This document shows, one piece after another, positions 11,129-22,514 of a stretch of DNA of 64,000 nucleotides. Below the pieces are notes generated by a model. That model had not been told where the DNA came from. It ran no database searches and saw only the letters and a list, made by a program, of their open reading frames with translations. The stretch's first letter is position 1. Every line of letters starts with the position of its first letter. The DNA lies in contig CP049016.1 in NCBI GenBank assembly GCA_004376055.2, positions 496,001 to 560,000 of the forward strand. Direction: 5' to 3'. The translations under genes and the position numbers were made by a program. This DNA comes from Nitrospirales bacterium LBB_01. GTDB taxonomy: Bacteria; Nitrospirota; Thermodesulfovibrionia; Thermodesulfovibrionales; Magnetobacteriaceae.

Positions 11129-11171
11129 ACGTAGGCAATGAAATTGTTAATCTGTTAACTCGGAGGGGAAA

Positions 11172-13487
11172 ATGAATTTGAATAAATTTTTATCGCAGGT
11201 AAAGCAGTTTGAGGAGTTGAGTGATGAGGAGTTGAGGGTCATTTCAGAGGCTGCCTCCGTGGTGGACTACTCAGACGGCATGTACATAAAGCGTGTAGGT
11301 GAGATGAGCAGGTTTTTTTATGTTGTCTATGACGGCAAGGTACGAGTGGCTTTAGAGTCTGGCGATACCATTACAATGTTTACACGCGGGGATATTTTTG
11401 GAGAGATGTCCCTTATGACAGGTGAGCCCTCAGGAGCAGATATAGTATCAGAGGGCAGCTCTCAGGTTGTAAAACTACCAAGGGAACTCGTTTCACATAT
11501 TATTTCAGGAAATCCTGCGGCTATGACAAAAATAGCCAAAACCATAGCCCACCGTCTGATTAAAAGAGATAGCAGCGAAAACGAAAAGTCTTCAATTCGT
11601 AACGCTAAAACTAAATCCAACGACCCCTATGATCTGGATTTTAGCTCAGCCATAGATCCGATAAAAATACTTGTCATAAATTCCAGAGCTAATTCTCTGA
11701 AGTTTTCACTGTTTGACACACGGTACAGTGTTGCCGCTATGGATGGGATAGTGGATAAAATCGGAACGTCATTGTCTTTTTATAAGGGGTCAGGCTCAAG
11801 GGGTGATTTTGAAGGAGACGTGTTAGTCGGCAGTATGGAGGAGGCGATTAAGCTTGTGGTGACACTGCTTACCGATGCTAAAGGGGGCGTCATCGGCAAA
11901 ATTGAAGAAATAACGGCGGTTGGACACCGTGTGGTTCATGGCGGCAACAAGTTTTATAATTCTATAGTAATAGATAAGAGTGTGATAGAGAACATAAAGG
12001 AATTCAATGTGTTTGCTCCCTTTCATAACCCTCATAACTTAGAGGGGATAGAGTGCTTGATGAGGCTGCTCCCTAATGCCTCTCACGTTGCGGTATTTGA
12101 CACGGCATTCCACAAGGGGATACCCGAACATGCCCGCAGATATGCACTGACTCCCAGCCTAAATACCGATGATAGAATACGGCGTTATGGTTTTCATGGA
12201 GTCAACCACCACTACGTGACACTGAAGGCAGCCGAGTATCTTAAAAAAACAACCGGACAGCTTAAGGTAATTTCCTGTCATCTCGGGCACGGCTCCTCGA
12301 TAACGGCAATAGACCACGGCAGAAGCATTGACACCAGCATGGGGATGACTCCGCTTGAGGGACTTGTCATGGGCTCACGGAGCGGGGATGTTGACCCCGG
12401 GCTGCTTCTGTATCTCATGACGCTTGGCTACACGGCTGATGATTTAAACAAGATGTTAAACGAACAAAGCGGCATAAAGGGAGTCAGTGAGGTTAGCAGC
12501 TACATGGAGGAGGTGCTTGCAGCTGCGGAGGATGGAAATAGAAAAGCAGAGACGGCTGTCAGTATGTTTTGCTACAAGGTGAAAAAGTACATAGGATCAT
12601 ATATAGCAGCTCTGGGCGGATTAGATGTTTTGGTATTTACAGGCGGTATAGGCAGTAATTCAACGGAGGTGCGGGCAAGGATATGTCAAGGGCTTGACCC
12701 TTTTGGCATAACTCTTGATGACAACGCAAACCGGCAAGTGCGTCCATTTTTAAGACAGGTTGAGGAAATATCAGAGGCAAACTCTAAGGTCAAAACTCTT
12801 GTAATACAGGCCGATGAAAAGCGTATGATAGCTCGTGAAACCCTTCACGCTCTGGGCAGACACACCACTGTGAGCAGTCGACAACAGGAGTACAAACAGA
12901 CCCCTATTCCTGTAAACGTATCAGCCCACCACGTGCATGTTACACCGGAGGCATTTAAGGTACTCTTTGGCGAGGGCAAACAGTTGACCGAAAAAGCGCC
13001 ACTTAGTCAACCCGGTCAGTATGCGGCAAATGAGACAGTTAATCTGATTGGCCCCAAGGGAAGAGTGGAAAAAGTGCGCATACTGGGGCCTTACAGAAAG
13101 GACTGTCAGGTGGAAATATCCCGCACGGAGGAGTTTAAACTTGGAATAGATGCGCCTGTCAGAGACTCCGGCGATATAGAGGGTACACCGGGAATTACGC
13201 TTGAGGGGACAGTTGGACAGTTAAAACTGGAAAAAGGCTTAATTTGCGCAAGACGTCACGTTCACATGTCCCCAGAGGATGCCCTCAAATTTGGACTAAG
13301 AGACAGAGATGTTGTGCTTATTAAAATAAAGAGCAAGCGGGAACTGACATTTGGCGACGTTTTAGTCAGAGTACATCCTGATTTCAGACTTGATATGCAC
13401 ATTGATACGGATGAGGGAAACGCTGTGGAACACGAGGCAGGTATGGTTGGCTTCATTGAGGGCATTCAACACAGAGCATATATGTAG
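11172..13487 (+). CDS. Trifunctional fusion: cNMP-binding-like domain, acetate kinase, PduL phosphotransacylase
   Basis: One 771-residue frame holds three domains. Residues about 4-130 are a cyclic-nucleotide-binding beta roll (FGEMSLMTGEPSG), in which the phosphate-binding Arg of true cAMP sites is not obvious. Residues about 160-560 are acetate kinase, with AVGHRVVHGG, FAPFHNPHNLEGI, RRYGFHGVNHHYV, CHLGHGSSITA and VFTGGIGSNS. Residues about 575-771 are PduL-type phosphate acyltransferase, with the two His motifs SAHHVHV and ARRHVHMSP. Together the enzymes would convert acetyl-CoA to acetate plus ATP, or the reverse, in one chain. The first lobe motif of AckA is altered (INSRANSLK rather than NxGSSSxK). 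GGAGGGG precedes the ATG. The frame is uninterrupted, so this is a true fusion. Confidence 0.92.
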   Translation: MNLNKFLSQVKQFEELSDEELRVISEAASVVDYSDGMYIKRVGEMSRFFYVVYDGKVRVALESGDTITMFTRGDIFGEMSLMTGEPSGADIVSEGSSQVVKLPRELVSHIISGNPAAMTKIAKTIAHRLIKRDSSENEKSSIRNAKTKSNDPYDLDFSSAIDPIKILVINSRANSLKFSLFDTRYSVAAMDGIVDKIGTSLSFYKGSGSRGDFEGDVLVGSMEEAIKLVVTLLTDAKGGVIGKIEEITAVGHRVVHGGNKFYNSIVIDKSVIENIKEFNVFAPFHNPHNLEGIECLMRLLPNASHVAVFDTAFHKGIPEHARRYALTPSLNTDDRIRRYGFHGVNHHYVTLKAAEYLKKTTGQLKVISCHLGHGSSITAIDHGRSIDTSMGMTPLEGLVMGSRSGDVDPGLLLYLMTLGYTADDLNKMLNEQSGIKGVSEVSSYMEEVLAAAEDGNRKAETAVSMFCYKVKKYIGSYIAALGGLDVLVFTGGIGSNSTEVRARICQGLDPFGITLDDNANRQVRPFLRQVEEISEANSKVKTLVIQADEKRMIARETLHALGRHTTVSSRQQEYKQTPIPVNVSAHHVHVTPEAFKVLFGEGKQLTEKAPLSQPGQYAANETVNLIGPKGRVEKVRILGPYRKDCQVEISRTEEFKLGIDAPVRDSGDIEGTPGITLEGTVGQLKLEKGLICARRHVHMSPEDALKFGLRDRDVVLIKIKSKRELTFGDVLVRVHPDFRLDMHIDTDEGNAVEHEAGMVGFIEGIQHRAYM

Positions 13488-13521: not shown

Positions 13522-13640
13522 CTGGATTCCTGCTTTCGCAGGAATGACAAAAAAGGAAGACGGAATGACCTCACCTAAAGGGGATTCCCCTGTAAAATCG
13601 CTCCCATCCTTGTCATTCCCGCCTCCGAGCGGGAATCCAG
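13522..13640. repeat. Dispersed hairpin repeat, copy 2
   Basis: The left arm is 13522-13548 (core ATTCCTGCTTTCGCAGGAAT) and the right arm 13612-13640 (core ATTCCCGCCTCCGAGCGGGAAT). The outer ends are CTGG and CCAG. The inner segment (gacctcacctaaaggg...) is nearly the same as that of copy 4. It sits just downstream of the acetate kinase fusion gene and could act as a terminator. Confidence 0.92.
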
Positions 13641-13782: not shown

Positions 13783-14994
13783 ATGTATAAAGTTCTGTTG
13801 ATAGAAGACGATGATACAGCCAGAAAGCAGTTGGCAAAGTTTGTTCAGAAGGAGCGCTTTGAGGTAGTACAGGCCGAAAACGGGCGTGTTGGTATAGAGC
13901 TTTTTGAGTCTGAACATCCACACATAGTGTTGACTGATTTGAAAATGCCTGATATTGACGGCATGGAGGTCGTTCACACTGTTAAACGCCTATCCCCTGA
14001 GACAGAGATAATCGTATTTACCGGCTACGGAGAGGTGGACACGGCAATAGCAGCCATTCGCGAAGGGGTATTGGACTACCTGAAAAAACCGATAGACCTT
14101 GACGCTCTTAGTATGGCTTTGGGACGTGCTTCAGAAAAAATCAGCATGAGGCACTCAGAGCAACTGTATCCTCATATTCTTTTAGCTGAGGATGAGGAAA
14201 CACCACGCATACGGCTTAAGAGGATATTAGAAAAGGAAAATTGGAGGGTTTTTGATGTTTCAAACGGTGAGGAGGCTCTCAGCACATTCATCAGCACAAA
14301 GATGGATATTGTTCTTTTAGATATCAAAATGCCTAAATTGGACGGACTTGAGGCGCTGCATCAGATGCGGGCCATAAATGATGATTTTGAGGCAATAATT
14401 TTTACCGGTTATGGTGATGAGCACAGCGCCATAAATGCGATGCGGTGTGGGGCAGTAAGTTTCTTAAGAAAGCCGGTTGATCTTGACCAACTGATAGCTA
14501 CAATTGAAAAAGCGCTGGAAAAGCTCTACAGAGACAGAGCGCTGAGGTATCGCACGCGAGAGCTTGAATTAGCCAAGCAGATTCTCGCTCATATTACCGA
14601 CGAGGAAGAGGTAATACTAAATATCCACAAAAATGTTGTGGAACAATCACTGACTTTTGCCCAAAAATTAATGGACTCCATTCCCACACCGGTTATTGTA
14701 ATAAATAAGGACCTCACAATAATATATATGAATAAATCTATGCTTGAAGCGTTAGATTTCACGCCTAAAAGGATTGACGAGAAACTGCTTGAAAATTTAA
14801 AAAATCTTGGAATTAAAGACCTTTCTATTGAACAGATAACCAATGCTATAGACATCCTATTTTTAGAACCCGGTAAATTAGAAATCCTAAAAACAGGCGC
14901 TCATTCGTTAATCACCCTTACTTTGATTACGGTTGTCGGCGATGTTAAGGAACATTATGTCTTGATGGCGATGCGCGGCGAAAGATCGGCTTAG
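13783..14994 (+). CDS. Double-receiver response regulator with C-terminal PAS-like domain (paralogue A)
   Basis: The 403-residue protein has two complete receiver domains: residues 1-120 with phosphoacceptor Asp52 (VLTDLKMP) and residues 128-245 with Asp180 (VLLDIKMP), each with the acidic pocket and the KP pair. After a helical linker, residues about 295-395 look like a divergent PAS domain (DSIPTPVIVINKDLTIIYMN). There is no DNA-binding or enzymatic output domain. A full-length paralogue of identical size lies at 21303-22514 at the other end of the cluster. GGAGGT precedes the ATG. It is likely a phosphorelay intermediate or adaptor. Confidence 0.85.
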   Translation: MYKVLLIEDDDTARKQLAKFVQKERFEVVQAENGRVGIELFESEHPHIVLTDLKMPDIDGMEVVHTVKRLSPETEIIVFTGYGEVDTAIAAIREGVLDYLKKPIDLDALSMALGRASEKISMRHSEQLYPHILLAEDEETPRIRLKRILEKENWRVFDVSNGEEALSTFISTKMDIVLLDIKMPKLDGLEALHQMRAINDDFEAIIFTGYGDEHSAINAMRCGAVSFLRKPVDLDQLIATIEKALEKLYRDRALRYRTRELELAKQILAHITDEEEVILNIHKNVVEQSLTFAQKLMDSIPTPVIVINKDLTIIYMNKSMLEALDFTPKRIDEKLLENLKNLGIKDLSIEQITNAIDILFLEPGKLEILKTGAHSLITLTLITVVGDVKEHYVLMAMRGERSA

Positions 14995-15005
14995 GGAGCT
15001 GAAGC

Positions 15006-16712
15006 ATGATGTCAGGTTCAAAAATTGTTCTCATCGTTGATGACGATAAGATGACAACTGCTCTTTTGGAAAAAGAGTTATTAAGAGGTTTTTTTACTGT
15101 TTTTACTGCGCCTGACGGTAAAACAGCCCTTGAAAAAATAGATACTACTAATGCCGGCATTGTCCTTATTGATGTCAACCTTCCCGACATAAACGGAATA
15201 GAGTTAATTAAAAAAGTTAAAGCAAAAAAACCTGAGTGTGAGATAATAATAATTACCGGCTATGGAACTCAGGATATAGCTATTCAGTCGCTTAAGCACG
15301 GGGCCTTAGACTACATAGAAAAGCCTATAAACATAGAGGAGCTTTTTGCAGCATTGGGAAGAGCTCAGGAAAAACTTACCGAAAAAAGCTCCCTCTTTAC
15401 CAAAAACACTCTTTTAATAATTGATGACGATGAGGTGGTAATAAAGAGACTGAAGAGGTTTTTTGAGTCTGAGGGGTTTGAGGTGTTTACAGCAACAAGC
15501 GGACTAAGAGGCTTAGAGATTATTGAATTCAGTAAAATAGACGTTGTTATTTCAGATATAAACATGAGCGATATGGACGGCATAGAGGTGATTACTGCGG
15601 CTAAGAAATATTATCAGGACATAGAGGGCATTATGGTAACAGGCGCTAACGATGATGAAAACGCCATAAGATCCCTTCGTGCTGGGGCTATAGACTATTT
15701 AACTAAACCTGTTAACCTTGATGAGCTGCTGTTTTCTGTTAAAAAGGCCATAGAACGAATACACCTTAACAGAACACGTCTCTACAGAAACCGCGAGCTT
15801 AAGATATCCACAGAAATCATCTCCAAGATGAACGAGGAGCTTGAAAGAAGGATACAGGAAAGGTCAACTGAGCTTAGCAAAATGCAGGTGCAGCTTTTTC
15901 AGACTTCAAAACTTGCAACACTCGGTGAGATGTCGGCAGGGCTTGCACACGAAATAAATCAACCACTGGGCGGCATAGCTCTTGTTGCCAAGAGTTTTCG
16001 CAAGCTCTTAGAACGGGATAGTTTAACAGAGACGGAGATTGTCTCCGGTCTCAATGACATCGAATCATCTGTAAAAAGAATGACTAAGATAATTCAACAC
16101 ATCAGGACCTTTGCCAGACAGGATACCCTGAAATTCGTAAAAGTTGATGTTGTTGATACAGTGGAGTCGGCTTTCAGCCTTTTGGATGAACAGCTAAGGC
16201 TTCATGAGATAGCAGTCATAAAGGACTTTGAGCCCTCCCTCCCTCAGATTATCGGAGAGCCTTATCAACTTGAGCAGGTGTGGATAAATCTTATCACTAA
16301 CGCCCGGGATGCTATGGATGAGAAGGATAAGCAACTATGTGCTGCAAGGATTGAATCATGTGATTACAGCAAGCGCCTCAACGTTACCGTCAAATACGAT
16401 ATTGATTTAGACTCTGTGGTTGTGACAGTTGCCGATAATGGAATTGGAATGAATAGAAAGGTCAGAGAGCGGGTGCTGGAACCGTTTTTTACAACAAAAG
16501 AGGTCGGACAGGCAACAGGACTGGGACTTTCGATAAGTTATGGTATTATAAGAAATCATAAGGGTAGAATTGAAATAGAAAGCCTTGAAGATGACCATAC
16601 AACAATAAAAGTGATATTCCCTACAGAGGATTCTCCTATTTATCAGAAGTTGGAGGAGACAGCTGAAAAACACGATGCGGTGATGGCAGCAAACAGTGAA
16701 AGGTTGTCTTAG
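15006..16712 (+). CDS. Hybrid histidine kinase with two N-terminal receivers
   Basis: The 568-residue cytoplasmic protein has two receiver domains (residues about 5-120, Asp in VLIDVNLP; and 130-245, Asp in VISDINMS), a coiled coil (ELERRIQERSTELSKMQVQL), a HisKA dimerisation domain with phosphoacceptor His in GLAHEINQPL (about residue 319), and a HATPase domain (NARDAMDE, DNGIGM, EPFFTTKEV, GLGLS). There are no membrane segments. Receivers N-terminal to the kinase suggest its activity is controlled by phosphorylation from another kinase. It lies 11 bases after the double-receiver gene. Confidence 0.9.
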   Translation: MMSGSKIVLIVDDDKMTTALLEKELLRGFFTVFTAPDGKTALEKIDTTNAGIVLIDVNLPDINGIELIKKVKAKKPECEIIIITGYGTQDIAIQSLKHGALDYIEKPINIEELFAALGRAQEKLTEKSSLFTKNTLLIIDDDEVVIKRLKRFFESEGFEVFTATSGLRGLEIIEFSKIDVVISDINMSDMDGIEVITAAKKYYQDIEGIMVTGANDDENAIRSLRAGAIDYLTKPVNLDELLFSVKKAIERIHLNRTRLYRNRELKISTEIISKMNEELERRIQERSTELSKMQVQLFQTSKLATLGEMSAGLAHEINQPLGGIALVAKSFRKLLERDSLTETEIVSGLNDIESSVKRMTKIIQHIRTFARQDTLKFVKVDVVDTVESAFSLLDEQLRLHEIAVIKDFEPSLPQIIGEPYQLEQVWINLITNARDAMDEKDKQLCAARIESCDYSKRLNVTVKYDIDLDSVVVTVADNGIGMNRKVRERVLEPFFTTKEVGQATGLGLSISYGIIRNHKGRIEIESLEDDHTTIKVIFPTEDSPIYQKLEETAEKHDAVMAANSERLS

Positions 16713-16727
16713 GGAGGCAGCTGACAC

Positions 16728-18125
16728 ATGGCAAAGTTATTAGTTATAGATGATGAGATAATCATACGGGAGAGGTTAAAGAAACTGCTCTTGCTGGATA
16801 AGTATGAGGTGTACTCAGCGGAAAACGGCATTGAAGGCCTCAAAATGTTTGAAACTCATGAGCCTGATATAATAATAACCGATATTAAAATGCCAAAGAT
16901 AAGCGGCATAGATGTTTTAAAAGAGGTTAAGGCAAAAAACACTATGGTCGAGGTTATTATGGTAACCGGTCACGGCGGCGTTGAAACTGCTATAGAGGCA
17001 ATGAAAGAAGGGGCCTTTGGCTATGTACAAAAGCCGATAGAGTACGATGAGCTGCATATAGAGATTGAAAAAGCGTTAGAAAAGCAGCAAATGAAAATGA
17101 AAATTGACTCAAACGTCAAGGAGCTTGAGTACAGGGTCAATGAGTGGGAAATTACCTTTAACTGTGTCAGCGATATGCTCTCTATTCACGATAAAGACTA
17201 TAAAATCGTCAAGTGTAACAGGGCATTTGCTGAAACTTTCAGCTTTAACCCTGAAGCTCCCGATAACAAACTTTGTTTTGAAATTTTTGACTGTCAGGAG
17301 GAAAGAGAATGCCTTAATGTTAAAACCTGCAACACTAAGCACTCTTGTATGACGGAGAAGTACTGGCCGAAGCTCGACATATATTTTGAGGTAACGGCAT
17401 CCCCGATTTTTGGGGTAGATGGGGAGTTTAAAGGCTCTATTCATATTTTTAAGGATATTACTCAGAGGAAGCTCTATGAGGAGAAAATAAAAGCATCGCT
17501 TCAGGAAAAAATCCTTCTATTGCGTGAAATTCACCACAGGGTTAAAAACAATATGGAAATAATCTCAAGTCTGTTGGAACTTCAGATTGAAGACTCAAGC
17601 GACGAAGGGCTTATCAGCATGTACAATGAGATGAAAAACCGGATACGCTCCATGTCTCTTATACACAGGCTGCTGTATCAAAGCGATAATTTCTCTGAGG
17701 TTGACTTTAACGAATACACTATAAACCTTATGACTGACCTTGTAAACTCCTACTGTGTTGATCCGTCAATGATAACGGTTAACATAGACATTGATAATAT
17801 ACTGATAAATATGGACACCGCCATGCCGTGCTGTCTGATTATAAATGAACTTGTAACGAACTCGTTAAAATATGCCTTTACAGAGACCGGCACGATAGAT
17901 ATTTCCATGAAGAGCGTTGGTGAAAAAATGTATGAATTAGTGGTGAGCGATAACGGAAAGGGCATACCAGAGGGGTTTGATATAAATCAATCGTCATCTC
18001 TTGGATTAAAACTGATTAGAACACTTGCTGAGTATCAGCTTGGCGGCAAGATTGAAATGAACACACGTGGCGGCACAGAGTTTAAACTTAGATTTAAGGA
18101 ACTTCAATACAAAAAAAGAGTCTGA
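16728..18125 (+). CDS. Receiver-PAS-HisKA_2 histidine kinase
   Basis: This 465-residue soluble protein has a receiver at residues 1-120 (Asp in IITDIKMP), a PAS domain at about 140-255 that carries several cysteines (CFEIFDCQEERECLNVKTCN), a HisKA_2-type phosphoacceptor region (LLREIHHRVKNNMEIISSLL) and a HATPase domain (NELVTNSLKYAF, DNGKGIPEGF). The Cys-rich PAS could bind a metal or sense redox state; this is inference. It lies 15 bases after the previous kinase with GGGAGG upstream. Confidence 0.88.
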   Translation: MAKLLVIDDEIIIRERLKKLLLLDKYEVYSAENGIEGLKMFETHEPDIIITDIKMPKISGIDVLKEVKAKNTMVEVIMVTGHGGVETAIEAMKEGAFGYVQKPIEYDELHIEIEKALEKQQMKMKIDSNVKELEYRVNEWEITFNCVSDMLSIHDKDYKIVKCNRAFAETFSFNPEAPDNKLCFEIFDCQEERECLNVKTCNTKHSCMTEKYWPKLDIYFEVTASPIFGVDGEFKGSIHIFKDITQRKLYEEKIKASLQEKILLLREIHHRVKNNMEIISSLLELQIEDSSDEGLISMYNEMKNRIRSMSLIHRLLYQSDNFSEVDFNEYTINLMTDLVNSYCVDPSMITVNIDIDNILINMDTAMPCCLIINELVTNSLKYAFTETGTIDISMKSVGEKMYELVVSDNGKGIPEGFDINQSSSLGLKLIRTLAEYQLGGKIEMNTRGGTEFKLRFKELQYKKRV

Positions 18126-18143
18126 AAATAACTAAGGGGTGAC

Positions 18144-19172
18144 ATGGAAGAGAAAGCAAGGGTTTTAGTCGTTGAGGATGAGGGCATAATAGCGTTAAAC
18201 TTGAAACGTAAGCTGGAAAAAATCGGCTACATTGTCACATCTATAGTGCCATCGTCTGAGGAGGCGATATTAAAGGCTGAGACTGACAAGCCTGACATAA
18301 TTATGATGGATATTGTAATACAGGGAGAGATGGATGGAATTGATACTGCGGCAGAGATAAAAAAACGCTCTGATATCCCAATAATTTTTATGACGGCTTA
18401 TGCTGACGATAAGCTGCTGGAAAGAGCAAAACTAATAGAGCCGTATGGGTACATTGTTAAAGCGTCCACCAATGATAAAGAGATATGTGTAACTTTAAAG
18501 ATGGCGCTTTACAAACATAAGATGGAAACATACCGCAAATCCTCTGAATATAAAGATATGCTCTTAAAGGAAATCCACCACAGGGTCAAAAACAATTTCC
18601 AGCTTATTACCAGTCTGCTAAGTTTGCAGTCAGAGGCGATAGAAGACGAAACCCTGCGCAATGTATTTATTGACAGCTTTAACCGGATACGCACAATGTC
18701 AATGATTCACACAAAACTATACCAGTCGGCAGACCTGTCAACTTTGGATTTTGCCGAATATGTTCAGGAACTGTGCGCAGAACTTGTCAATTCTTACGAA
18801 ATACATTCAAACACTCCGGCTATTAAGCTTGATATCAACATAAAAAGAGTTGATATAACTACAGCAATCCCTTGTGGGTTGATAATTAACGAGCTTATCT
18901 CAAATTCTATGAAGTATGCCTTTAAAGACGGCAGACAGGGTGCGATATTTGTCAGTCTTAATGAAGATGACAGCGGTAACTATGTTTTAATCACAGGGGA
19001 TAACGGAGTCGGGATTCCTGAGGGTTTTGACTTAAGCAAAGCACGCTCTCTTGGAATGCAGTTGGTACATGATTTGGTTAAGCGAAAACTCAAAGGTACA
19101 ATAGATATAGACACAACAAACGGTACGACATATCGGATGGTTTTTAAAAAGACCACAACTGAGAGTGTTTAA
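18144..19172 (+). CDS. Receiver-HisKA_2 histidine kinase
   Basis: The 342-residue protein combines a receiver (residues about 5-122, Asp in IIMMDIVIQGEMDG) with a HisKA_2 region (LLKEIHHRVKNNFQLITSLL) and HATPase (NELISNSMKYAF, DNGVGIPEGF). It has no sensor or membrane domain, so input presumably comes through its receiver. Related architecture occurs at 56434-57675 in the second cluster. It is the fourth gene of a tight run; a repeat element separates it from the next gene. Confidence 0.87.
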   Translation: MEEKARVLVVEDEGIIALNLKRKLEKIGYIVTSIVPSSEEAILKAETDKPDIIMMDIVIQGEMDGIDTAAEIKKRSDIPIIFMTAYADDKLLERAKLIEPYGYIVKASTNDKEICVTLKMALYKHKMETYRKSSEYKDMLLKEIHHRVKNNFQLITSLLSLQSEAIEDETLRNVFIDSFNRIRTMSMIHTKLYQSADLSTLDFAEYVQELCAELVNSYEIHSNTPAIKLDINIKRVDITTAIPCGLIINELISNSMKYAFKDGRQGAIFVSLNEDDSGNYVLITGDNGVGIPEGFDLSKARSLGMQLVHDLVKRKLKGTIDIDTTNGTTYRMVFKKTTTESV

Positions 19173-19189
19173 AATGTTGCACAAACTAA

Positions 19190-19350
19190 CTAATACTGAG
19201 TTGCGTTCAAAGATATATAAAAAACTGGATTCCTGCCTTCGCAGGAATGACAGAGAGAGTGGTTACGCCCCTTTGTCATTCCCGCCTGCGAGCGGGAATC
19301 CAGTCCTTTTTCTTCGCTATTATATTACCTTTTTGGAGGCTACCTGGTAT
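19190..19350. repeat. Dispersed hairpin repeat, copy 3 (long form)
   Basis: The core arms are 19225-19251 and 19275-19303. Similarity to copy 5 extends well outside the core: the left flank from CTAATACTGAGTTG (19190) and the right flank through TATTATATTACCTTT and GCTACCTGG (to about 19347). This defines a longer mobile unit of roughly 160-180 bases. It lies between two kinase genes. Confidence 0.88.
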
Positions 19351-19367
19351 AAGAGGATAATGCAAAT

Positions 19368-21278
19368 ATGATGACTTCTAAAAATAAGCAAACCAAAGGA
19401 TTTTTAAGCCGGGTTTCACTAACCGTAAAAATTGCGGCTATTACAATAGTCATAGGGATTACTCTTAGCACTGTGTTGGACCATTTCCACAGAAAAGCGT
19501 TAAAGGAAACCTTTAATGCACAGCTGCTGGAAAGACTGGAGACTCAGGCAAAAGAAGACAGAAAACTATTTGATACTCATTTCTTTGGTTATCACAGAGC
19601 TGTCAAAGCATTAGTAAACCACTATTTCTTAATCAATTATGTTGAAAAAGTGTCATGGAGTGATAACACACCAGTAAAGGTTTATCAAAAAGAAATCCCG
19701 CCATGGCTTCCTCAGGTTTCCGTTTTAAAATACTATCCTGAAATTGAATATGCGTTACTTGTTGACAGTCACAGAAAAATCAGGGAGGTTTATACTGAGT
19801 ACTCCGACCCTGTTCCACCTTCACTTACTTCAATAAGCGATTATGTAATTGAGACAGCGATTGCACATTCCTTTATAGCACGACTTGATGGAGTTAACTA
19901 TGTCATCGCCTCAGGGATTATAAAAAACGAAAATAACAAAGAAACTGACAGCCTTGTGATTGTTCACAGAATTAACAGTGATTTTCTAAAGGATGCAATG
20001 GGCACGGACAAAGGGATAGTCGCACTCTACAGTGATGATGAAAACGCTGTAATATCTACAAACGCTCCTGACATGATATCCATTGGTAAAAGTCTTGATG
20101 ACCTCAAAACAGAGTATATGTTTACGGGAAAATCGTTTTTAGACTATGGTGAAATAGAAAATAAGTATTCGTTTATATCGTTAATATCAAAAAGCACATT
20201 TGCAGGACTGAGCGTAAATATCCTCACCCGCAGTCTTAAATATAATGTTACTACGGCGTTTGCTCTTATTGTATCGTTTGTTATTATAGTGCTTTATATG
20301 ATGAGGAAAGTACGGATGTTAGACGACTACATAGCTGATGTTTCAAAGCGTCAATTAGGGATAGACTGTCCAACGTTAATTAAAAGCAAGAACAGATTTA
20401 TTAGAAGCGACCAAATTATAGCGCTTGAGTACAGGTTTCACAGTCTCTTTGACAAGATAGTGGAGGCAAAAAGACAACTTGAGAAAAAAGCTGTAGATCT
20501 TGAGCAGGTCAATAATGAGCTCAAAGAGGCTACGGCTCAACTGGTTCAAACTGCCAAACTCTCGGCTCTTGGTGAGCTTACCGCAGGGGTTGCCCATGAA
20601 CTTAACCAGCCGCTAAACGGCATAAAGATAATCTGTCAGTCAGTCATGAAAGACATACAAAAAGACAGGCATAACCCAGAGGAACTCGTCACAGACCTTG
20701 CAGATATAGTTGAACAGGTTGATAAAATGGCTGCCATCATTGACCACATGCGGATATTTACAAGACGCTCTGACACAATGGTTGTTGAATCGGTAAATAT
20801 TAACGCTTTAATTGAGGCGTCATTTAAACTCTTAGGCCAGCAGTTAAAATCTAACAACATAATGATAAAAACAAACTTTTCGCCGGAGCTGCTGCAAATA
20901 AAAGGCGACCATATCAGACTTGAGCAGGTTATAATTAATTTGACCTCTAATGCAAGAAATGCGTTAAAAGCCAGCGGCAAAGCTGAAATGCGGCTTGAAA
21001 TAAAAACCTATTGCTCTGATAACTTTAAGCTGCCCTCAGGCACAAATTCCATAGTAATCGAAGTACAGGACAATGGGCATGGAATTCCACAGGCGATTAA
21101 GGATAAAATCTTTCAGCCCTTTTTTACCACCAATGAACCAGGAAAAGGCACAGGACTTGGGCTTTCGGTATCAAGAAAGATAATTGAAGAACATGGCGGG
21201 TTGTTATTGGTAGAGAGTGAAGAAGGTATTGGGACGACATTTAAGATAGTGCTGCCAACTCCTGAGCAACAAGCTTAA
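19368..21278 (+). CDS. Membrane sensor histidine kinase
   Basis: The 636-residue protein has an N-terminal membrane segment (about residues 17-37), a periplasmic sensor region of about 260 residues, a second membrane segment (about 303-322, FALIVSFVIIVLYMMRK), then HisKA with the phosphoacceptor His in GVAHELNQPLNG and a HATPase domain (NARNAL, DNGHGIP, FQPFFTTNEPGKGTGLGLS). The periplasmic region resembles double-Cache-type sensors in length and hydropathy, but no ligand motif is recognisable. It is the only membrane receptor in this cluster and so the likely signal input. ATGATG at 19368 gives two possible starts. Confidence 0.88.
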   Translation: MMTSKNKQTKGFLSRVSLTVKIAAITIVIGITLSTVLDHFHRKALKETFNAQLLERLETQAKEDRKLFDTHFFGYHRAVKALVNHYFLINYVEKVSWSDNTPVKVYQKEIPPWLPQVSVLKYYPEIEYALLVDSHRKIREVYTEYSDPVPPSLTSISDYVIETAIAHSFIARLDGVNYVIASGIIKNENNKETDSLVIVHRINSDFLKDAMGTDKGIVALYSDDENAVISTNAPDMISIGKSLDDLKTEYMFTGKSFLDYGEIENKYSFISLISKSTFAGLSVNILTRSLKYNVTTAFALIVSFVIIVLYMMRKVRMLDDYIADVSKRQLGIDCPTLIKSKNRFIRSDQIIALEYRFHSLFDKIVEAKRQLEKKAVDLEQVNNELKEATAQLVQTAKLSALGELTAGVAHELNQPLNGIKIICQSVMKDIQKDRHNPEELVTDLADIVEQVDKMAAIIDHMRIFTRRSDTMVVESVNINALIEASFKLLGQQLKSNNIMIKTNFSPELLQIKGDHIRLEQVIINLTSNARNALKASGKAEMRLEIKTYCSDNFKLPSGTNSIVIEVQDNGHGIPQAIKDKIFQPFFTTNEPGKGTGLGLSVSRKIIEEHGGLLLVESEEGIGTTFKIVLPTPEQQA

Positions 21279-21302
21279 GCACATAAAACGGAGGTATTTC
21301 CT

Positions 21303-22514
21303 ATGTACAAGGTACTTTTGATAGAGGACGATGAGACAGCCAGAAAACAATTGGCAAAATATGTTCAAAAGGAGCGTTTTGAGGTAATATCGGCTGAAAA
21401 TGGGCGTGTAGGTATTGAGCTTTTTCAGTCAGAGCATCCGCACATAGTGTTGACAGACCTTAAGATGCCTGACATTGACGGACTTGAAGTGATTCATACT
21501 GTTAAACGCCTGTCTCCTGAGACAGAGGTAATAGTGTTTACCGGCTACGGAGAGGTTGATACCGCTATAGCGGCCATTCGTGAGGGAGTTCTGGATTATC
21601 TGAAAAAACCGATAGACCTTGATATTCTGAGTCTGGCTTTGGGTCGGGCAAAAGAAAAAATCAACATGAGACACTCCGATAACGTTGTTCCTCATATTCT
21701 TTTAGCCGAGGATGAGGAAATTCCTCGCATACGCCTTAAAAGGGTATTAGAAAAAGAGCAGTGGAAAATTTTTGATGTTGCAAACGGAGAGGATGCAGTC
21801 AGTCTTTTTTCTCACACAAAGATAGACATAGTGCTTTTGGATATCAAAATGCCAAAAATAGACGGGCTTGAGGCTTTGCACAAGATGCGGGAAATTAATG
21901 ACGATTTTGAAGCGATAATTTTGACTGGATATGGGGATGAGCAGAGCGCCATACAGGCGATGCGGGATGGGGCGCTGAGTTTTCTCAGAAAACCAGTTGA
22001 CCTTGACCAACTTATACTTTCCATAGAAAAAGCGATAGAAAAGCTAAGCGGTGACAGAGCGTTAAAATATCGCACCCGTGAGCTTGAACTGGCAAGGCAG
22101 ATTATCGCTCAGATTACAGAGGAGGAGGATGTAATAATCAATATCCATAAGACCATCGTGGAACAGGCAATGAATTTTGCCCAAAGATTATTGGACTCTA
22201 TTCCTATGTCAATTATAGTAATAAAAAGAGACCTTACATTAATCTACATAAACAAATCCATGCTTGACATGATAGATTTCACACCTGAAAAGATTGACGA
22301 AAAGCTGCTTGATAATCTGAAAAGAATCGGGATAAAGGACATTTCAATTAAACAAATAACAGACTCAATAGATATCCTTTTCAACGCACACGGGCGGGTG
22401 GAAACAATAAAGACAGGCACATACTCATTTATCACGCTGACACTGATTACGATAGTCGGCGAGGTAAAGGAAAATTATGTTTTAATGGCAGTGCGTGGTG
22501 AAAGGCTGCCTTAG
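21303..22514 (+). CDS. Double-receiver response regulator with PAS-like domain (paralogue B)
   Basis: The 403-residue protein aligns end to end with the protein at 13783-14994, with no gaps in the parts I compared: same start (MYKVLLIEDD), phosphoacceptors in VLTDLKMP and VLLDIKMP, and the same C-terminal PAS-like region (DSIPMSIIVIKRDLTLIYIN). The two arose by duplication and now bracket the cluster. It follows the membrane kinase by 24 bases with GGAGG before the ATG. There is no output domain. Confidence 0.87.
   Translation: MYKVLLIEDDETARKQLAKYVQKERFEVISAENGRVGIELFQSEHPHIVLTDLKMPDIDGLEVIHTVKRLSPETEVIVFTGYGEVDTAIAAIREGVLDYLKKPIDLDILSLALGRAKEKINMRHSDNVVPHILLAEDEEIPRIRLKRVLEKEQWKIFDVANGEDAVSLFSHTKIDIVLLDIKMPKIDGLEALHKMREINDDFEAIILTGYGDEQSAIQAMRDGALSFLRKPVDLDQLILSIEKAIEKLSGDRALKYRTRELELARQIIAQITEEEDVIINIHKTIVEQAMNFAQRLLDSIPMSIIVIKRDLTLIYINKSMLDMIDFTPEKIDEKLLDNLKRIGIKDISIKQITDSIDILFNAHGRVETIKTGTYSFITLTLITIVGEVKENYVLMAVRGERLP

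Follow-up and report, generated by a model that had tools for sequence, protein, structure and literature searches.

One protein encoded in the window, the 64,000-nucleotide stretch of DNA analyzed here, joins a cyclic-nucleotide-binding-like (cNMP-like) domain, an acetate kinase (AckA) and a PduL phosphotransacylase, and in its AckA domain the nucleotide-binding part of the active site has been lost while the acetyl-phosphate part is retained. We propose, with a probability of roughly 0.55, that the PduL half works, that the ATP comes from a separate AckA, and that the altered AckA half is a regulatory or docking module. The Pta-AckA step is at the center of anaerobic energy metabolism, and repeated loss of the ATP site with the acetyl-phosphate pocket held in the window type would represent a regulatory or scaffold use of acetate kinase for which no earlier description was found.

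The fusion gene, its domains and its surroundings

Positions 11172–13487 of the + strand form a single uninterrupted 771-aa frame with an ATG start and a GGAGG close upstream (Table 1). All three Pfam domains score above their curated cut-offs. The AckA domain scores 422 bits against PF00871 with a match that spans the whole domain, the PduL domain scores 251 bits against PF06130, and the cNMP-like domain scores 51.9 bits against PF00027 (cut-off 27.5). An AlphaFold model based on 25 family members has a mean pLDDT of 81. Its AckA part matches 1g99 (TM 0.90 by target), its PduL part matches 5cuo (TM 0.96, 1.1 Å), and its cNMP-like part matches the cNMP domains of PKA/PKG. The ORF, Pfam and fold matches bear out the sequence-only reading that the three domains share one frame, and the search it proposed found the same domain order at full length in many independent genomes. 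Because of these full-length orthologues the fusion is not an assembly artifact, and a frameshift or assembly join of separate genes is ruled out. The three-domain fusion is real beyond reasonable doubt. No published description of a cNMP-AckA-PduL fusion was found in the open literature searched.

Table 1. Features of the fusion gene and its flanks (window coordinates; MtACK, Methanosarcina thermophila acetate kinase)
Feature	Position	Strand	Evidence
Shine-Dalgarno-like GGAGGGG, directly 5' of the ATG	11162..11168	+	sequence
cNMP-like/AckA/PduL fusion gene, 771 aa	11172..13487	+	ORF list, Pfam, orthologues
cNMP-binding-like domain, aa 31–111, GEMSLMTGEPSGAD	11262..11504	+	Pfam PF00027 7.6e-14, family alignment
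Linker DPYDLDFSSA, aa 151–160	11622..11651	+	comparison with the separate AckA in this genome
Acetate kinase domain, aa 165–555	11664..12836	+	Pfam PF00871 2.2e-126, fold match 1g99
Altered PHOSPHATE1 motif LVINSRANSLKF, aa 167–178	11670..11705	+	canonical LVINxGSSSLKY; Arg172 = MtACK Gly9
His373 in GHGSS, PHOSPHATE2, = MtACK Asn211	12288..12290	+	alignment
Changed LOOP4 residues of the adenosine pocket, Tyr444 (= MtACK Asp283) and Glu446 (= MtACK Arg285)	12501..12509	+	
PduL phosphotransacylase domain, aa 580–753	12909..13430	+	Pfam PF06130 7.9e-75, active-site alignment
Inverted dispersed repeats/terminator-like stem between fusion and receiver cluster	13526..13640	+	sequence

Full-length proteins with this three-domain order were found in some 15 Magnetobacteriaceae genomes as well as in Desulfobacterota, Planctomycetota and Lentisphaerota. 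Among 246 Nitrospirota genomes sampled, the fusion family is limited to the window's own family (9 genomes). Sampling of the phyla to which a Phycisphaerae, a Syntrophales and a Lentisphaerae member belong found it in 13 of 294, 9 of 297 and 5 of 289 genomes, respectively; a few of these fusions are partial or split. In Myxococcota the fusion consists of AckA and PduL, with no cNMP-like domain.

The PduL half of the window protein has all six metal ligands (H48, H50, E109, H157, H159 and H204) at the two-zinc ligand positions taken from PMC4784909. Residues S45, R97, R103, S127 and R194 are also present, leaving Lys70 as the sole tested active-site residue that is not kept. The PduL active-site residues are intact in 13/13 window-type orthologues. 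Judged by these residues, the PduL half is very probably active.

The roles of a Glu and a phosphate-binding Arg are established for the cNMP-binding family. The loop of the cNMP-like domain, GEMS..TGEP..AD(V/I), retains the Glu and lacks the Arg. The sequence-only reading had described a pocket without this Arg, and the family alignment agrees. It had also put both enzyme steps under one ligand sensor. Control by a cyclic nucleotide is not supported: the Arg is missing in every aligned three-domain fusion, in Nitrospirota, Syntrophales, Planctomycetota and Lentisphaerota alike. The absence of the phosphate-binding Arg makes a cyclic nucleotide unlikely as ligand, and the ligand of the domain, if any, is probably not cAMP or cGMP. 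The domain may instead bind another ligand or have a purely structural role. The cNMP-like domain is the fastest-evolving of the three domains.

Six receiver/kinase genes (13783–22514) lie downstream of the fusion in the ORF list, as first described, but the functional link drawn from them finds no support among relatives. Apart from the window, a single genome of the same genus has the cluster beside the fusion; it is absent from this position in another genome of that genus and in all other genera examined, and it was rejected as a conserved neighbor. No conserved gene neighbors of window-type fusions were found among 8 loci. Two 403-aa double-receiver proteins (13783–14994 and 21303–22514) flank the histidine-kinase cluster, are 78% identical and resemble a duplicated gene pair. 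A dispersed palindromic, MITE-like repeat, TGTCATTCCCGCC..GAGCGGGAATCCAG, has seven copies in the window (9587, 13611, 19274, 25750, 28999, 45168 and 55554) with 0 expected by chance.

The nucleotide site of the AckA half

Alignment with MtACK places the changes on the nucleotide side of the AckA active site. Gly9, Ser10 and Ser11 correspond to R172, A173 and N174, Asn211 to H373, Asp283 to Y444, and Arg285 to E446. The nucleotide-site residues of PHOSPHATE1 (GSSS), PHOSPHATE2 (Asn211) and LOOP4 (Asp283/Arg285) are not retained, whereas the acetate/acetyl-phosphate and Mg residues R91, V93, H123, D148, H180, R241 and E384 are all present. The changes first noticed in the GHGSS loop and the first AckA motif (NSRANS) are confirmed by this alignment. 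The comparison used 55 canonical AckAs, in which 96 positions are conserved at 90% or more (Methanosarcina numbering). The window type lost 6 of the 96 (G9, S10, S11, D283, R285 and E385), and five of these six lie in ATP motifs (hypergeometric p 0.003). Asn211 is replaced by His in 12/13 window-type orthologues; R91, V93, H123, D148 and H180 are unchanged in 13/13, and R241 and E384 in 12/13. Substitution of N211 in MtACK lowers activity 6- to 200-fold (PMC4390882), and the equivalents of N211, D283 and R285 in StAckA are listed as nucleotide-binding (PMC3475010). With the nucleotide side lost and the acetyl-phosphate/acetate side kept, ATP is most likely no longer made at a useful rate, and the residue changes predict that ATP activity of the AckA half is probably strongly reduced. 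Residues N7, S12, K14, G239 and G331 are unchanged in the window type, which leaves room for some remaining or modified kinase activity.

The AckA domain is under purifying selection in the window genus (dN/dS 0.04–0.09), with values as low as those of the separate canonical AckA. Global decay of the window-type domain is ruled out by dN/dS together with its identity to the canonical panel. A second variant clade, in Planctomycetota and Lentisphaerota, has 10 of its 15 lost AckA positions in ATP motifs (p 0.0002). Its members additionally lost Asn7, Ser12, Lys14, His123 and Gly239, and on these residues their AckA halves are unlikely to be kinases. A further idea treats the AckA half as a passive relic, needed just for folding between two useful domains, and draws on the lost catalytic motifs and on the AckA-wide sequence divergence of the Planctomycetota/Lentisphaerota variants. 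It is very improbable for the window type, where the overall AckA rate is near baseline, dN/dS is low and the acetyl-phosphate residues are nearly invariant.

The AckA half could alternatively be an active kinase that uses a different phosphoryl donor or acceptor (PPi/Pi or a different nucleotide), on the model of the PPi-dependent acetate kinase of Entamoeba. The intact acetyl-phosphate side, the selection on the domain and the convergent replacement of Gly9 by Arg in both variant clades are consistent with such an enzyme. However, Gly331, which Gln replaces in the one PPi-dependent AckA known, is unchanged, and the Planctomycetota variants have also lost Asn7, Ser12, Lys14 and Gly239, which does not agree with a working kinase. 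We consider this explanation decidedly unlikely.

Canonical fusions, paralogues and second acetate kinases

The AckA and PduL motifs are both intact in the fusions of Syntrophales, Myxococcota, most Planctomycetota and one Magnetobacteriaceae genome (G007), and in most of these genomes the canonical fusion is the only AckA. Both active sites are thus intact on one chain in canonical fusions and not in the window type. These fusions bear on the possibility that the window protein is fully bifunctional and hands acetyl-phosphate from one active half to the other. Bifunctionality agrees with a conserved, single-chain fusion and with the catalytic R91, D148, H180, R241 and E384 retained in the window type, and the canonical fusions, intact in both halves and mostly the sole AckA, make it the likely ancestral role. 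For the window type it is unlikely, given the selective loss on the nucleotide side and the canonical AckA that is always also there. The original suggestion that both steps run on the window chain is not supported, on the same two points, the lost nucleotide residues and a canonical AckA elsewhere in every variant genome; the channeling and ligand-control mechanism is a better match for the canonical fusions in other phyla than for the window copy.

In the AckA tree the two variant clades lie in separate places, and canonical fusions surround each of them. A single origin was rejected (AU p = 0.0011 against grouping), and the nucleotide-site variants have at least two origins. Of the genomes with a variant fusion, 20/20 encode an extra canonical AckA, compared to 4/27 of those with a canonical fusion (Fisher 1e-9), counted by hand and with related genomes taken as independent. 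Once the pattern had appeared in the window family, the other phyla were examined: each of the six Planctomycetota/Lentisphaerota genomes whose fusion is a variant also encodes a separate canonical-motif AckA. Where the fusion is canonical, in Syntrophales, Myxococcota and most Planctomycetota, no such second AckA was found; these absence counts come partly from incomplete MAGs, which many of the genomes are. The fusion of G1076, one of the four exceptions, has an in-frame stop. There are only two phylogenetically independent pairs, and the association is not significant so counted, a count with no power; it is therefore suggestive, not proven, that a variant fusion goes with a second canonical AckA.

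Most Magnetobacteriaceae carry two fusion-family genes, type A and type B (the window type). In type B the AckA nucleotide site is altered and PduL is intact, whereas type A is the mirror image, with canonical AckA motifs and a PduL that is eroding or lost. In type A PduL, R103 is Lys in most members and R194 is Lys or Met in half. The type A protein of G008 (L114 172-2502) lacks five of the six PduL metal ligands in an intact frame, and those of G010 and G012 have no PduL at all. Mean within-type identities are 82% for PduL, 66% for AckA and 52% for the cNMP-like domain in type B, compared to 70% for AckA, 56% for PduL and 40% for the cNMP-like domain in type A. Within genus g3, type A has dN/dS values of about 0.06 in AckA and 0.11–0.30 in PduL, and type B has 0.06–0.14 in AckA and 0.03–0.10 in PduL. 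The identities and dN/dS thus indicate stronger constraint on one half per copy.

The window genome has a separate canonical AckA of 432 aa at genome position 450893. Its N terminus, DPYDLNFTSA, is a trace of the fusion linker, and it nests within the fusion clade of the AckA tree. It is therefore most simply a broken-out fusion. A separate PduL (L003, G000:C1:403488-404075, reverse strand; dN/dS 0.06–0.10) contains an AckA stretch in its first ~150 aa, with a local score of 97 compared to a maximum of 53 in 500 shuffles. This PduL with its remnant, about 75 aa of AckA, is conserved in the genus (L003, L118 and L034). In the AckA structure from Salmonella (PMC3475010), the helix and segment to which the remnant aligns form part of the dimer interface. 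The structure model of the remnant is of low confidence, and the remnant may serve docking. Pta and ADP-forming acetyl-CoA synthetase had no match in the window genome; AMP-forming Acs is present. Side matches of the Acs search at G000:C1:2107093-2136757 are very large adenylation-domain proteins (frames of 2,100–3,400 aa) that probably belong to a nonribosomal peptide synthetase cluster. The only true Pta among the family members searched is G009:C72:18957 (E 1e-129), beside both fusion paralogues. G009 is the genome with the Ca. Magnetocorallium paracelense contig.

In the mechanism that we favor, the PduL half of the fusion would be the working catalytic half (acetyl-CoA + Pi <-> acetyl-phosphate + CoA), and the second canonical AckA, 450893 in the window genome, would carry out the ATP-forming step. 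The altered AckA half, kept under purifying selection, would be an acetyl-phosphate-responsive regulatory and/or docking module. The fusion and the separate AckA may associate via the AckA dimer interface, and the cNMP-like domain may modulate both through a ligand that is not a cyclic nucleotide. Hetero-association of the fusion with the canonical AckA is plausible but tentative. More speculative still is a wider scheme for the duplicated copies, in which one has kept only PduL active and the other only AckA, the two form a mixed complex via the AckA dimer interface, and the disabled AckA is an acetyl-phosphate sensor, the ATP site having been lost on two or more occasions with an identical Gly-to-Arg change in the ATP loop.

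Comparison with known systems

Freshwater magnetotactic Nitrospirota have been contrasted with a marine relative said to hold a complete Pta-AckA pathway (PMC10278575). The relatives searched here have no real Pta but have PduL and a canonical AckA, so a route from acetyl-CoA to acetate looks available, which bears on that contrast. The window AckA resembles the M. thermophila enzyme (1g99/1tuy; PF00871, TIGR00016) in fold, with ~44% identity, and has R91, H123, D148, H180, R241 and E384 in common with it. It differs at Gly9/Ser10/Ser11, Asn211 and Asp283/Arg285 and in its fusion to PduL and a cNMP-like domain. The window PduL shares its fold, metal ligands and phosphate- and CoA-site residues with the PduL/PTAC phosphate propanoyltransferase of Rhodopseudomonas palustris (5cuo; PF06130), but that protein is a free, microcompartment-packaged enzyme, whereas the window PduL is the C-terminal domain of a 771-aa protein. 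The Entamoeba PPi-dependent acetate kinase also has changed nucleotide-side motifs; its changes include ADENOSINE (the Gly331 equivalent) and not PHOSPHATE1 or LOOP4, and it is unfused. The canonical fusions of Syntrophales, Planctomycetota and G007 share the domains and their order with the window protein and, in those aligned, the missing cNMP Arg. Unlike it, they have canonical AckA motifs and are usually the only AckA of their genome.
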